Translations under genes and position numbers: made by a program
Shown here: piece after piece, positions 36,940-41,894 of the stretch
Position numbering within the stretch: position 1 is the first letter of the stretch
Layout: the number at the start of each line of letters is the position of its first letter
Notes under the pieces: generated by a model
Databases searched by the model: none
The model's input: only the letters and a program-made list of their open reading frames with translations
What the model was told of the DNA's origin: nothing
Source: Gammaproteobacteria bacterium
GTDB taxonomy: Bacteria; Pseudomonadota; Gammaproteobacteria; SG8-11
Length of the DNA stretch: 54,934 bases
Direction: 5' to 3'
NCBI GenBank assembly: GCA_030610155.1
Contig: JAUWSG010000003.1
Coordinates: 1 to 54,934 of the forward strand

Positions 36940-38709
36940 TTACTTTAGTTGTGCAAAATATTTTGCGATGGCCTTCTGTTCCAGTGGGCTTAAGCTGGCT
37001 GACATCGCGTGCATGGTCGTTTGTTTGCGGGTTTCATCACTGTATTGTTTTAATGCGCTAAAAAGATAAGATTCCAATTGACCGGCAAGACGAGGTATTT
37101 TGTTGTCGGTGCTAATTCCATTGTCGCCGTGGCAACGATAACATTTTTCTGCCAGTACTTCGGGCGCTTCCGGAATGCGTATTTCGGGTTTGATGCGGGT
37201 TTGTTTGGCAAAATAGGCCGCATAGTTCTTTATGTCCGCATTGCTTAATTCAGTCACGGCTTTTTGCATATTTTCATCTTCGCGTTTGCCGCCCTTATAA
37301 TCATTCATGGCCGAGACGATGTACCCGGGTTCCTGGCCGGCGATGGAAGGAGTGTTGGCTTGACTGCTATTGCCCAGATCACCATGGCAGGCAGTACAGG
37401 CGCTGGCATTGGATTCACCTGCGGCGGCGTCAGCTTTCAGGGTGTTGGGCATGGCGGTTGGTTCTTGTGAGGCATAATAAAGGCTGACCTTTTCCACGTC
37501 TGTTTCGCTCAGGCTTGTAACAAAGCTTTTCATCATCTCGTGTTTGCGTTGCCCGCTTTTATAGGCGTTAATGGCTGCCGCGAGATATTGTGGGTTGAGC
37601 CCTGCTAAACCGGGTGTGCCGGGTAGCGTGCTATTGCCATTTTTACCATGACAGCCGTTGCAGGCCGCGGCAATGCTGCCACCCTGTCCGATGGGATCAA
37701 ACCCTTTGCTCTGACTGGTCTTGCCGGAGCTTATCTTTTTGGGTGTTTGTTTGGCGTAATGCGCGGCGAGATTCACTATTTGGCTGCTTTTTAAGGTCGC
37801 CACCGCATCGTTCATCATTTTATTTTTTCGCGAACGTTTTTTGTAGGCATTGAGGGCCTTAACCAGGTATTCGGCGTTATGTCCGGTCAAGCTGGGAATG
37901 CTTGTGCTTCCACTGTTACCGTTCATGCCGTGACAACTATCGCATGCTTTAGTGCCGAGTTTCTTGCCAGCATTGGCGTTACCTTTGGCGGGGTGCAGGG
38001 ATTTTTTGGGGGTTTGCGTAGAAAAATATGCCGCCAGGTGATCTATGTCGCTTTTGCTTACGGAGTGCTTGAAATTTTTCATTATGACCTTTTGTTCACG
38101 GCGGCCCCCTTTGAAATAATCCAGAACTGCGGATCTGAAATACTCAGGAGGTAATCCCGCCAACGCGGGGACACCATCTTTAGGTGCATTGCCATTTTCG
38201 CCGTGACAACCGATGCATTCCCGGGCTGTCTTTTTACCCTTCGCAATAGTCCTTTTGTTCACGACGATGGCCCTGGTTTTTTTGACTTCTTTAAGCTGTT
38301 TCCAGTCCGCGGTCTGGGCATTATAAAAAGACGCAAGGTTTAGCATGTCTGTTTCCGTAAGGGATTGTAAGGCATTACTCATGTCCTCATGTTTGCGTTC
38401 GCCGCTGATGTAGAACAACATAGCCGATAGCATATAGTCGGTTTGCTGGCCGGCAAGATAAGGGCTGCCCTCTACGGTTTTATTACCATCGTCACCATGA
38501 CATTCCACGCACTTTTGCGCCAGTTGCATGCCGGTTTCTTTGTCGCCAACAGGTGTTTGCGGTGCAGTTTCCGGGGAAGGTTCCTGGTCTTTCTCTGTGG
38601 TAGTAGCTGTCGCTGTGTCAGGGGTGGGAGTTTCCATTTCCGGGTCTTTGTCGCATGCACTGATAAAAAATACGGCTAGCGTGCAAACAAGTAAAATACG
38701 ACGCGTCAT
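36940..38709 (-). CDS. Hexahaem c-type cytochrome lipoprotein with six tandem class I domains
   Basis: A 589-residue exported protein. The lipobox ISAC puts the lipid on C19, and Asp at +2 suggests inner-membrane retention under the E. coli rule. A Thr/Pro/Glu linker (20-55) follows. Six haem motifs are present: C67-H71, C165-H169, C256-H260, C350-H354, C438-H442 and C523-H527, spaced 85-98 residues apart. Each repeat resembles cytochrome c4/c553 (CHG-x-x-GN and a PxLAG segment) and keeps a likely axial Met (for example M110, M210, M481, M566). The ATG at 38709 has AGGAGAA upstream. An electron relay in the periplasm is likely. Confidence 0.92.
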   Translation of the reverse strand: MTRRILLVCTLAVFFISACDKDPEMETPTPDTATATTTEKDQEPSPETAPQTPVGDKETGMQLAQKCVECHGDDGNKTVEGSPYLAGQQTDYMLSAMLFYISGERKHEDMSNALQSLTETDMLNLASFYNAQTADWKQLKEVKKTRAIVVNKRTIAKGKKTARECIGCHGENGNAPKDGVPALAGLPPEYFRSAVLDYFKGGRREQKVIMKNFKHSVSKSDIDHLAAYFSTQTPKKSLHPAKGNANAGKKLGTKACDSCHGMNGNSGSTSIPSLTGHNAEYLVKALNAYKKRSRKNKMMNDAVATLKSSQIVNLAAHYAKQTPKKISSGKTSQSKGFDPIGQGGSIAAACNGCHGKNGNSTLPGTPGLAGLNPQYLAAAINAYKSGQRKHEMMKSFVTSLSETDVEKVSLYYASQEPTAMPNTLKADAAAGESNASACTACHGDLGNSSQANTPSIAGQEPGYIVSAMNDYKGGKREDENMQKAVTELSNADIKNYAAYFAKQTRIKPEIRIPEAPEVLAEKCYRCHGDNGISTDNKIPRLAGQLESYLFSALKQYSDETRKQTTMHAMSASLSPLEQKAIAKYFAQLK

Positions 38710-39075
38710 GATGTTGGTTCTCCTGTTTATGCTTCGACCTTTTAACGAATTGTTCATTTAGACTAGTTGAATTCAAGTGCCGGGCTGTGGTTTTCGTTTT
38801 TTAAATTTTTAATGCGTGACTTAGCGAGTTTGATAGATGAAGGAGGCAAGTTGATTTTCAAATGTATAGTAACCTATCTGTTTTCTAAAATCATAAGGGC
38901 TGACCTGCTGTTGTCCTGGTCACGAGGGCTGCGTAAAAAAGCATTTGTTATTTAAACCGGTCTTCTTTGCGACCCCTGCGCTGTAAATATTTCAATAAGA
39001 TAACCCTCGTATTTTCATGGTTAAACAGTTTTGCATTAGTTCGAATTTTGCCCCGGAAAAAAATGTAAAAAAGAC

Positions 39076-39104
39076 TAGACAGACTTGTCTGTATGGCCTA
39101 GTAT
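39076..39104 (+). promoter_or_regulatory. Predicted sigma70 promoter of tetR, start at or beside the ATG
   Basis: TAGACA (39076-39081) and TAGTAT (39099-39104) are 17 bases apart. Initiation would fall about 39111, next to the ATG at 39112. No Shine-Dalgarno precedes the ATG, so the tetR mRNA is predicted to be leaderless. Confidence 0.6.
39079..39092. promoter_or_regulatory. TetR operator 1, ACAGAC-TT-GTCTGT
   Basis: A perfect inverted repeat overlapping the -35 box and spacer of the tetR promoter, as expected for autorepression. The same half-sites recur in front of the next gene. Confidence 0.75.
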
Positions 39105-39111
39105 TTACTCT

Positions 39112-39708
39112 ATGAACAAACAAGCGACAGTACCAAAGGGCTCGGCCCGCGAGAGAATTATGCAGGTTGCATCTGTACTGTTCTATCAGCAGGGCTATCG
39201 AGCTACTGGTATAAATGAGGTTATACAAAAATCGGGTGTGGCCAAGGCTACATTTTATAGCCATTTTCCGAGTAAGGATGACCTTGGAATGGTCTATCTG
39301 GAGGAAGTGCATAAAAATGAATTGCTCGTACTGGATAAAGCGCTCCATGCTGCTAAAGGCCCGGTAAATAGATTTTTATCCGTTATTGCCTCGCTGGAGC
39401 CATGGTTAATAGAGACCCGGTTTCGAGGTTGTCCCTATTTGAATATGGCCTCGGAGATCCCTGATCCGCGGAGCCCATTAAGAAAGGAAGGCACCAGGCT
39501 CTATAATGGTATTCGTTCAAGGATAGAAAAATTGACTATTGAACTGATTAGCGCTGATTCGAAGAAATACGGGCATCTCGATGCCAGCGATATAATCAAC
39601 AACTATATGTTGTTATTCAGTGGAGCGATTTCACTGGCTGAACTCTACAATGCAATTTGGCCTGTTGAGCATGCGTTAGTGACCTTGCGACGTTTGATAG
39701 GAGAATAA
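39112..39708 (+). CDS. TetR-family transcriptional regulator
   Basis: A 198-residue repressor-type regulator. The N-terminal helix-turn-helix is typical of TetR: RERIMQVASVLFYQQGYRAT, then INEVIQKSGVAKATFYSHFP. The ligand domain has the segment RFRGCPYLNMASEIPDP, found in TetR proteins related to the YxaF/AcuR type. The ligand cannot be inferred. The start at 39112 was preferred to a GTG at 39085 because the latter lies inside the operator. Two matching palindromes, one in its own promoter and one before the downstream diiron gene, indicate it controls both. Confidence 0.9.
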   Translation: MNKQATVPKGSARERIMQVASVLFYQQGYRATGINEVIQKSGVAKATFYSHFPSKDDLGMVYLEEVHKNELLVLDKALHAAKGPVNRFLSVIASLEPWLIETRFRGCPYLNMASEIPDPRSPLRKEGTRLYNGIRSRIEKLTIELISADSKKYGHLDASDIINNYMLLFSGAISLAELYNAIWPVEHALVTLRRLIGE

Positions 39709-39735
39709 TCGGGCAAATTTTTTTGCCTCTATAAC

Positions 39736-39753
39736 AGACAGACTGGTCTGTCT
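39736..39753. promoter_or_regulatory. TetR operator 2, AGACAGAC-TG-GTCTGTCT
   Basis: A perfect 18-bp inverted repeat that contains the same ACAGAC...GTCTGT core as operator 1. It lies 27 bases after tetR and 25 bases before the diiron gene, directly after a TATAAC hexamer (39730-39735) that could be a -10 box. Confidence 0.78.
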
Positions 39754-39778
39754 TTTTGGTAAACATGAAAGGAGAAAA

Positions 39779-40717
39779 ATGATGACGCAACAACAGACTT
39801 TTGCAGTAGACACAAATCGTTACGCCAGATGTATTGCGGTATCCAAACGTATTCGTTGGGATATTGATGAAGATGTGATTCGCGGGCGCAGATTTGATTT
39901 CGATAAGAAGTTCCTGCCCGATGGTTTGTCCAAAGTGAACGAAATTGATTTTCTTGGCGACAGTGAAAAACGTTTCCTGAGCCAAATTCAGGGACGCACT
40001 TATGCCAATATTTTTGGTCTCGTTGAACGTTTCATTTGCGCCAAAGTACTTGAAGTTAGCCAGGAGCATTTTTTAGGAGATCAGGTTGCGCTGGAGGCGT
40101 TGATTCGGTTTAGCGATGAGGAACTCAAGCATCAGGAACTTTTCCGTCGTCTGGAACATATGGCCGGTGAACAGATGCCGGAAGGTTATCAATTTGTTCC
40201 GCAGCCTAATGAAGTGGCAAGGGCAGTCCTGGGTAAGTCGTCCTGGGCAGTATTGGGGCTGACGCTGCATATCGAGTTGTTTACACAGTTGCATTACAAG
40301 CAAAGCATTGAGGCTGACAGTGATCTCTCCGAACTTTGGAAGGACGTGTTTCTTTATCATTGGCGGGAAGAATCACAGCACGCAATTATGGACGAGCTTG
40401 AATGGCAGCGTGAAGATGAAAAGCTCTCTGCTGATGAACGTGACCAGGCAGTAACGGACCTTATTGATTTAGTGGCTGCAATAGATGGGATCCTGCAGTT
40501 GCAGGCTAAACACGATGCGGAATACTTTGTTAGTAATGGTGGTCGTGCTTTCACCACTGATGAGATGGAAACAATTCATCAAAAGGTCCTTGAGGCATAT
40601 CGTTGGCAATACATCATCTCTGGTGTGCAGGCGCCACGTTTTAGCGAAGTGTTGTCGAGATTTATTTCAACTGACCAGGGTAAACGTATATCGGAAGCGT
40701 TGGCTACTTTCGTATAA
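39779..40717 (+). CDS. Ferritin-like diiron protein, putative oxygenase/oxidase
   Basis: A 312-residue soluble, helical protein. The four-helix ligand pattern of ferritin-like diiron carboxylate proteins is visible: E83 (GLVERFI), E115xxH118 (EELKH), E166 (TLHIELF) and E198xxH201 (EESQH). The surroundings recall AurF-type N-oxygenases, but I cannot assign a substrate. GGAG precedes a double ATG, and the second ATG has better spacing. The gene lies after operator 2 and before an ArsM-like methyltransferase (26 bases), so a small oxidation-methylation pathway is inferred. Confidence 0.85.
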   Translation: MMTQQQTFAVDTNRYARCIAVSKRIRWDIDEDVIRGRRFDFDKKFLPDGLSKVNEIDFLGDSEKRFLSQIQGRTYANIFGLVERFICAKVLEVSQEHFLGDQVALEALIRFSDEELKHQELFRRLEHMAGEQMPEGYQFVPQPNEVARAVLGKSSWAVLGLTLHIELFTQLHYKQSIEADSDLSELWKDVFLYHWREESQHAIMDELEWQREDEKLSADERDQAVTDLIDLVAAIDGILQLQAKHDAEYFVSNGGRAFTTDEMETIHQKVLEAYRWQYIISGVQAPRFSEVLSRFISTDQGKRISEALATFV

Positions 40718-40743
40718 ATCTGATTTTAAAAAGGAGAAACATT

Positions 40744-41559
40744 ATGGCTATAGTCTGTCCCAGTAATTTTGATAAAGGGTTTCTTCGGGAGCAGGTGCGT
40801 GCAACCTATGAAGAGGTTGCGCGGAATCCCGAGGGTGATTTTCATTTCCATCGAGGATCTGATTATGCTGCACAATATCTTGATTATGATTTTAATGAAC
40901 TTAAACAATTACCCCATTCTGCTACCGCACGGTTTGCAGGCGTTGGTAATCCGATCCAAATTGGCGATGTGGATCCAACTCTGGGTGCGATCCGTCCAGG
41001 CCAGGTTGTTGTGGACCATGCTTGCGGTGCTGGTATGGATCTGATGCTCGCAGCCCGACGTGTAGGTAAAACAGGTAAGGCTATTGGGGTCGATATGACG
41101 CCAGGAATGTGCGAGGCAGCAAGAATGGCCATTGAGCAGGCTGGGTTGAGCGATGTTATGGAAATACGCGAAGGGATGTTTGAAGCGCTGCCGGTTGAGG
41201 ACAACAGTGTAGACGTGGTGATTTCAAATGGTGTGGTCAATCTCGCTACGGACAAGAAGCGTGTTTTTCAGGAGATATATCGTGTGCTTAAACCAGGTGG
41301 CCATTTATTTTTGGCTGATGTCGTTGTGCAACGGGAATTAACCCTGGATGCGCGCAGTAACCCGGTGTTATGGGCCGCCTGTGTCGGTGGTGCGTTAGTT
41401 GAGTCCGAGCTTACTAAATTGGCAGAGGAAACCGGCTTGCAAAATGGTGAGGTGGTGAAACGCTTTAACTGTTTTTACAACACTGCAGCAGAGGCCAAGG
41501 TAGCTAAAGACCTGTTTGTGCATGCTGTAAATTTCAAGGCAAGCAAGCCAGTTAACTGA
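40744..41559 (+). CDS. ArsM-like class I methyltransferase lacking two arsenic-binding cysteines
   Basis: A 271-residue SAM-dependent methyltransferase with the cofactor motif VVDHACGAGMDL (89-100), acidic GVDMTP (115-120), and the ArsM-type layout: YLDYDFNELKQLPHSATARF before the GxGNP motif and VISNGVVNL after it. In arsenite methyltransferases the corresponding positions carry Cys (GCGNP and SNCVINL); here they are V67 and G163. The third Cys equivalent (C213 in WAACVGGAL) is kept. Arsenite is thus an unlikely substrate. AAGGAG lies before the ATG. Confidence 0.85.
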   Translation: MAIVCPSNFDKGFLREQVRATYEEVARNPEGDFHFHRGSDYAAQYLDYDFNELKQLPHSATARFAGVGNPIQIGDVDPTLGAIRPGQVVVDHACGAGMDLMLAARRVGKTGKAIGVDMTPGMCEAARMAIEQAGLSDVMEIREGMFEALPVEDNSVDVVISNGVVNLATDKKRVFQEIYRVLKPGGHLFLADVVVQRELTLDARSNPVLWAACVGGALVESELTKLAEETGLQNGEVVKRFNCFYNTAAEAKVAKDLFVHAVNFKASKPVN

Positions 41560-41617
41560 TGCGATGTGCAGGTGTTTTGTTGAAATTAACTATTAAATAT
41601 TTTTGAGGAGATTAATA

Positions 41618-41851
41618 ATGAAAACGAATATAGTTGATGTGTTTATTTACATTCAGTCAAAAGGTATTCCGGAAGTCGTTTCAAGTCTGGCTGATCATAT
41701 AAGTCAGGTTGCAGGTGTTGCCAAAGTCAGGCCACATCCGGATGTGAGGCAACTTATCGTTGTTGAATATGATCTGGAGCAGACCTCCGGGAAAAAGCTT
41801 ATAGATATTATAAAGCAGAATGGGTGTTCAGGCTTTTTGGTTGGAATGTGA
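41618..41851 (+). CDS. Small HMA-fold-like protein without a CxxC metal site
   Basis: A 77-residue protein with the beta-alpha-beta-beta-alpha-beta pattern of heavy-metal-associated domains (VAGVAKVRPHPDVRQLIVVEYD, then GKKLIDIIKQNG). The loop that normally holds GMxCxxC reads SKGIPEVV, with no cysteine. The only Cys is near the end (NGCSGFLVG). It may bind a partner or a small molecule rather than a metal. The ATG at 41618 has GAGGAG upstream; an upstream in-frame start is less likely. It is the last gene of the TetR-linked unit and a terminator follows. Confidence 0.7.
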   Translation: MKTNIVDVFIYIQSKGIPEVVSSLADHISQVAGVAKVRPHPDVRQLIVVEYDLEQTSGKKLIDIIKQNGCSGFLVGM

Positions 41852-41866
41852 TATGTGGTACTTATG

Positions 41867-41894
41867 AAAAGGGGGTCCTGAATTTCCCCCTTTT
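41867..41894 (+). terminator. Intrinsic terminator of the diiron-methyltransferase operon
   Basis: AAAAGGGGG pairs with CCCCCTTTT around a ten-base loop, followed by ATTAAAAA. It lies 16 bases after the last gene. Confidence 0.88.

Follow-up and report, generated by a model that had tools for sequence, protein, structure and literature searches.

A putatively TetR-controlled operon with a ferritin-like diiron protein, a methyltransferase and an HMA-like protein, and its possible role in the detoxification of small thiols

We analysed a stretch of 54,934 nucleotides (the window) of contig JAUWSG010000003.1, assembly GCA_030610155.1, from a bacterium of the Gammaproteobacteria lineage SG8-11. 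The subject of this study is a small operon in the window with genes for a TetR-family repressor (tetR), a ferritin-like diiron protein (DI), a methyltransferase (MT) and a protein with the fold of the HMA domain and no CxxC motif (HMA-like). The host genome is a draft metagenome-type assembly of 2.89 Mb in 238 contigs and is 85% complete. An original prediction, made from the sequence alone, had placed tetR, the three structural genes and a terminator at this locus, and all of them were found there (Table 1). The common strand of DI, MT and the HMA-like gene, the short gaps between them and the terminator at their end support a single, putatively TetR-controlled unit.

The operon and its candidate operators

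Table 1. Features of the operon in the window, and positions of a small membrane protein (SMP) in compared loci (L numbers)
Feature	Position	Strand	Remarks
Whole unit (tetR, DI, MT, HMA-like, terminator)	39076-41894	+	All elements found as predicted
tetR promoter, TAGACA-17-TAGTAT	39076-39104	+	9/12 matches (background level for a scan alone); architecture conserved in five loci
Operator 1 (predicted), AGACAGACTTGTCTGTAT	39077-39094		7/8 arm pairs; inside tetR promoter, in the -35/-10 spacer
tetR, TetR/AcrR-family repressor	39112-39708	+	TetR_N 51.3 bits (cut-off 24); TetR_C_13 26 bits (cut-off 27)
Inverted repeat GGGCAAATTTTTTTGCC, terminator-like, 3' of tetR	39710-39728		Similar repeat in L077, L078, L083, L099
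Operator 2 (predicted), AGACAGACTGGTCTGTCT, upstream of DI	39736-39753		8/8 palindrome; conserved in four further loci
DI, 312-aa ferritin-like diiron protein	39779-40717	+	Ligand residues, AlphaFold model, fold matches
MT, S-adenosylmethionine-dependent methyltransferase, ArsM/UbiE-like	40744-41559	+	Profiles; without ArsM Cys72 and Cys174
HMA-like 77-aa protein, ferredoxin-like fold, C-terminus LVGM	41618-41851	+	Predicted model and family alignment; no CxxC
Terminator-like hairpin, end of unit	41871-41888	+	Hairpin scan
SMP in compared loci	L080:7771-8080; L084:6969-7430; L088:6956-7471; L154:7553-8158; L160:4208-4690; L177:5610-6023; L178:5957-6400		

The paired operator has the form AGACAGAC-NN-GTCTGTCT and is present both at the tetR promoter and ahead of DI. 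Its exact core, ACAGACNNGTCTGT, occurs twice in the draft genome, both times in this unit. Matches with one mismatch were no more common than in a reversed control; a wider TetR regulon was rejected on this ground, and the regulon is local only. Four other loci (L077, L078, L083 and L099) have a tetR orthologue on the same strand, 66-79 bp upstream of DI, and in each of them both operators are kept in position and sequence. In these four loci tetR is also followed by the inverted repeat (G)GGCAAA...TTTGCC(C) or by a slightly altered form of it. Two operators with the same half-sites, one in the tetR promoter and one before DI, had been predicted, and this conservation bears them out.

In the window and the same four loci, the start of tetR consists of TAGACA, 17 bases, a TAGTAT/TATAGT-like -10 element, 7-10 nucleotides and ATG. 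The sequence makes a leaderless tetR mRNA probable, and the operator fills the spacer between -35 and -10. A leaderless message would explain that no Shine-Dalgarno sequence is found at the tetR start (ATG 39112), whereas DI, MT and the HMA-like gene are each preceded by one of the GGAG type, as had been foreseen. The protein carries the TetR_N helix-turn-helix domain, and palindromes at both its own and its target promoter are consistent with a local repressor of the TetR/AcrR family. In locus L111 (5190-5850), a more distant TetR was found together with another, TTGACTAATTAGTTAGTTAA-like palindrome at both the tetR and the DI promoter. Repressor and operator have apparently co-evolved there, and the fact that both differ together argues strongly, at the level of sequence, that the palindromes are the sites of the repressor. 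Divergent from the tetR unit, on the minus strand of the window (36940-38757), lies a gene for a 605-aa multi-cytochrome c protein with 5-6 repeated CxxCH cytochrome domains.

The three structural proteins

Alignment with 36 homologues showed that residues E83, E115, H118, E166, H194, E198 and H201 of DI are invariant. Assigned by motif and not by structure superposition, they form a 3-His/4-carboxylate set (three His, four Glu) that includes HxxxExxH. The N-oxygenases AurF and CmlI have a diiron site of the same 3-His/4-carboxylate (3H/4C) type (PMC13108848). The AlphaFold model of DI (predicted local distance difference test, pLDDT, 91) matched CmlI best in the PDB (E 6.5e-4), and AurF with a template modelling (TM) score of up to 0.65, both moderate scores. 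The closest folds, 5hyh, 2jcd and 3chu, gave TM scores of 0.51-0.65 at an identity of only 12-16%. The predicted fold and the ligand set thus both agree with the AurF/CmlI family, but the similarity to the Pfam model AurF (PF11583) was 15.7 bits, below the gathering cut-off of 29.6. The link to AurF and CmlI is one of fold and ligands only, since a profile search of PDB sequences returned nothing and profiles do not reach AurF. By its modelled anatomy DI appears to be of the diiron oxygenase type, in line with the oxidising or oxygenating protein proposed originally; we do not claim that it belongs to the AurF family. No match was found in NCBIfam, nor any homologue in viral and phage collections. 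Neither Pfam nor NCBIfam has a model for the family of DI, which is present in at least 463 genome loci.

MT (METHYLTRANSFERASE) had been called ArsM-like. The fold bears this out, but MT has only one of the three conserved cysteines of ArsM, which are Cys72, Cys174 and Cys224 in CmArsM (PMC7248198). In comparison with ArsM structures, GCG has become GVG and SNCVxNL has become SNGVxNL in MT, so that V67 stands for Cys72 and G163 for Cys174; only the cysteine of ECxxGA is retained (C213, the equivalent of Cys224). This loss is family-wide. The score of MT to the ArsM subfamily model PRK11873 was 201.7 bits, under the cut-off of 263, and NF045656, the model of the methanethiol S-methyltransferase MddA, was not among the best 25 of its 60 profile matches. 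A phylum-wide search with MT reached 1e-70 in its own genome only, and a search in the orders of genomes G631 and G435 added one locus, L210. The own genome has a second MT paralogue (L045, contig 41, 1955-5919), 64% identical to that of the window. It is found with DsrE and a 251-aa protein that matches no Pfam family; a third, divergent methyltransferase and an oleate hydratase-like open reading frame (ORF) also lie nearby. Internal stops were reported in some of the MT and SMP matches.

The HMA-like protein is confidently predicted to have the ferredoxin-like HMA fold (beta-alpha-beta-beta-alpha-beta), with ATP7B and MerP as nearest structures (TM score about 0.8). The predicted model and the family alignment confirm the suggestion that it belongs to this fold without the CxxC motif, which was found in none of the relatives; nearly all of them end in G followed by M or L. 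The family was found in 18 of 274 genomes of the class. Outside the module, its relatives had no common neighbour.

These properties fit poorly with an operon for the methylation of arsenic, another metal or a metalloid, made up of ArsM and a metal chaperone. The ArsM-like profile of MT and the HMA fold speak for it, but we rejected it as highly improbable because of the missing cysteines in MT and the HMA-like family and the scores below the cut-offs, and no ArsR or arsenic genes were recognised in the gene list of the window.

Recurrence of the module and its link to MddA

In a single scan, 463 relatives of DI were recovered from 84,980 species genomes, and the best 79 of these 463 loci were read; gene calls at the compared loci were mostly ORFs without annotation. 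A regulator was present beside DI in 60 of the 79 loci read. Seven kinds of regulator were found, including TetR, two-component systems, AraC-cupin and alpha/beta-hydrolase-LuxR, and DI was mostly accompanied by a regulator alone. DI is the core gene of the module. Cultured carriers of DI homologues include Marinobacter sp. ATCH36 (L093) and Sedimenticola hydrogenitrophicus (L107). Co-occurrence of the three structural genes in other genomes had been set beforehand as a test of the prediction, and in two of them (L080 and L082) they do occur together, in the order response regulator-histidine kinase-HMA-DI-MT. Two of the three genes were paired in about ten further genomes. The order response regulator-histidine kinase-DI-MT was found in L154, TetR-DI-HMA in L077, L078 and L083, TetR-DI in L099 and L111, and an HMA-DI pair in L084, L106, L117 and L136. 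Within 1.5 kb of DI there were nine HMA matches in 302 kb, against none in 566 kb of the rest of those loci. To our knowledge the module is undescribed, as the original prediction had supposed; no report of the combination was found in the literature searched.

On the DI tree, the window and loci L077, L078, L083 and L099 form one TetR clade (support 0.98), which lies inside a group of loci under two-component control; L080 is close to it. TetR therefore probably took over an older HMA-DI-MT operon that was controlled by a two-component system. In six loci (L092, L113, L118, L122, L125 and L128) a member of another methyltransferase subfamily was found no more than 1 kb from DI, so DI is associated with methyltransferases more than once. 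Alpha/beta hydrolases adjoin DI in seven loci.

MddA-type enzymes serve to detoxify H2S and methanethiol, and either compound induces mdd genes (PMC12904073). Relatives of MT (about 65% identity) were found in tandem with MddA in two genomes, with MddA scores of 340 bits (L046) and 332 bits (L047) at a cut-off of 270 for NF045656, and L160 has the order HMA-MddA-SMP, with MddA at 371 bits. Between the response regulators of these three loci and those beside most DI operons the identity is about 60-68%, as compared to 31-32% for the next paralogue in the loci compared. In an independent search with the response regulator, covering 274 genomes, four orthologues of 66-68% identity were recovered, three of them by MddA. 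As the same two-component system flanks MddA together with MT or with HMA and SMP, MddA takes the slot of DI. Among the loci read, MddA and DI were never found in one locus.

SMP, with the motif WWYWLxT..FPVQVR..YCxxAR..PWNR, follows DI or MT in L080, L084, L088, L136 and L154. It has no Pfam match (one member tested) and recurs by DI, MT, HMA-like, MddA, DsrE and TusA. Three of its matches (L181, L182 and L184, in genomes G657, G550 and G582) contain one TGA, which is either the end of the gene or a recoded codon. DsrE or TusA adjoin relatives of SMP, HMA or MT. OsmC adjoins DI in Novosphingobium, Nostoc, L084 and L136, and a redoxin is present in the DI loci L107 and L115. A neighbourhood of MddA, DsrE, TusA, OsmC and redoxin suits a role in sulfur or thiol stress better than one in biosynthesis.

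Proposed function and comparison with known systems

We tentatively favour the reading that the unit is a self-contained, inducible operon for the detoxification of small thiols or sulfide. TetR would repress both promoters until it is released by a small toxic or stress metabolite. DI, with its AurF/CmlI-type diiron site, could then activate O2 and oxygenate the compound, and MT may methylate either that compound or what DI makes of it, with sulfur or another soft heteroatom as the most likely site. The small HMA-fold protein would have an accessory role: it may act as a protein-protein adaptor or bind a ligand in a non-classical way. The most likely substrates would be sulfide and small, methanethiol-like thiols that are volatile or reactive, since elsewhere MddA holds the position of DI by the same partners and two-component system. 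The original prediction had left open whether the unit makes or detoxifies a small molecule, which would also be the ligand of TetR; detoxification is favoured, and biosynthesis is not, as DI mostly stands with a regulator only and has neighbours of sulfur and thiol stress.

Several observations weigh against this proposal. AurF and CmlI oxygenate amines and not thiols. Only three loci have MddA in the slot of DI, so the swap is seen in a small sample, and there is no module gene around the fourth close response-regulator orthologue (G487). The own genome has no MddA above the cut-off of 270 bits, and the two-component system of the module was not found in it at E 1e-60. MT and HMA are both absent beside most DI genes. 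The MT homologue of L210 has neither MddA nor DI in the sequence available, and the second MT of the own genome has both DsrE and an oleate hydratase nearby.

It is possible, if somewhat unlikely, that the unit detoxifies a xenobiotic without sulfur, such as an amine or an aryl compound. DI would N-oxygenate the compound, by analogy with AurF and CmlI, MT would N- or O-methylate the product, and the compound would be the ligand of TetR. Regulators typical for the sensing of small molecules (TetR, AraC-cupin and alpha/beta-hydrolase-LuxR) and the alpha/beta hydrolases beside DI agree with such a role, but it leaves unexplained the two-component system and partners shared with MddA and the DsrE, TusA and OsmC neighbours, and the similarity of DI to AurF is under the Pfam cut-off. 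We consider it unlikely that the unit serves an oxidative, peroxide or lipid stress response in which oxidised lipids or thiols are repaired or scavenged by DI, partnered by OsmC and redoxin. The OsmC and redoxin genes at DI loci and the oleate hydratase near the second MT would suit it; however, OsmC and redoxin were found in a minority of loci, and the association with MddA would not be accounted for. Pairs of an oxygenase and a methyltransferase are common in biosynthesis, and with the dedicated regulators this would fit the production of a small diffusible metabolite or signal, with DI oxidising and MT methylating a precursor and TetR sensing the product. Such a role is less likely again, given that no scaffold-forming enzyme or exporter lies within or beside the operon and that MT is absent from most DI loci.

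Beyond the detoxification of thiols or sulfide by this unit, a wider proposal, which we regard as doubtful, is that DI and its relatives make up a new family of diiron oxygenases, which destroy small toxic, methanethiol-like thiols or sulfide and functionally replace MddA in a conserved, signal-regulated module for volatile-sulfur stress (regulator, HMA-like, DI or MddA, MT and SMP). If this were true, oxidation would be an alternative to methylation for the disposal, by bacteria, of volatile thiols that otherwise turn into the climate-active gas dimethylsulfide. DI lies nearly always beside its own sensor, and the shared two-component system and partners offer a handle on the substrate and a tie to MddA and, through it, to methanethiol and sulfide chemistry. 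The conserved operator makes a reporter-based search for the ligand straightforward.

In comparison to known systems, DI resembles AurF and CmlI (PF11583) in its predicted helical-bundle fold and its ligand set, but it lies in regulated units of one to four genes and not in antibiotic clusters. MT belongs to the same Rossmann methyltransferase subclass as ArsM (PRK11873) and keeps the equivalent of Cys224; in contrast to ArsM, it lacks Cys72 and Cys174, scores below the cut-off and has no arsenic genes as neighbours. The HMA-like protein has the predicted fold of MerP, ATP7B and CopZ, whereas it is without CxxC, has a conserved C-terminal GM or GL and stands alone. As in other local repressor systems of the TetR/AcrR family, there are predicted autoregulatory and target operators; here, unlike in those, tetR is probably leaderless and its operator would lie between -35 and -10. 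From the MddA (NF045656) operons the window differs in having DI for MddA and TetR for the two-component system, with no MddA above the cut-off in the genome, but those operons have MT, HMA-like, SMP and an orthologous pair of PAS/GAF kinase and OmpR regulator in common with the DI operons.

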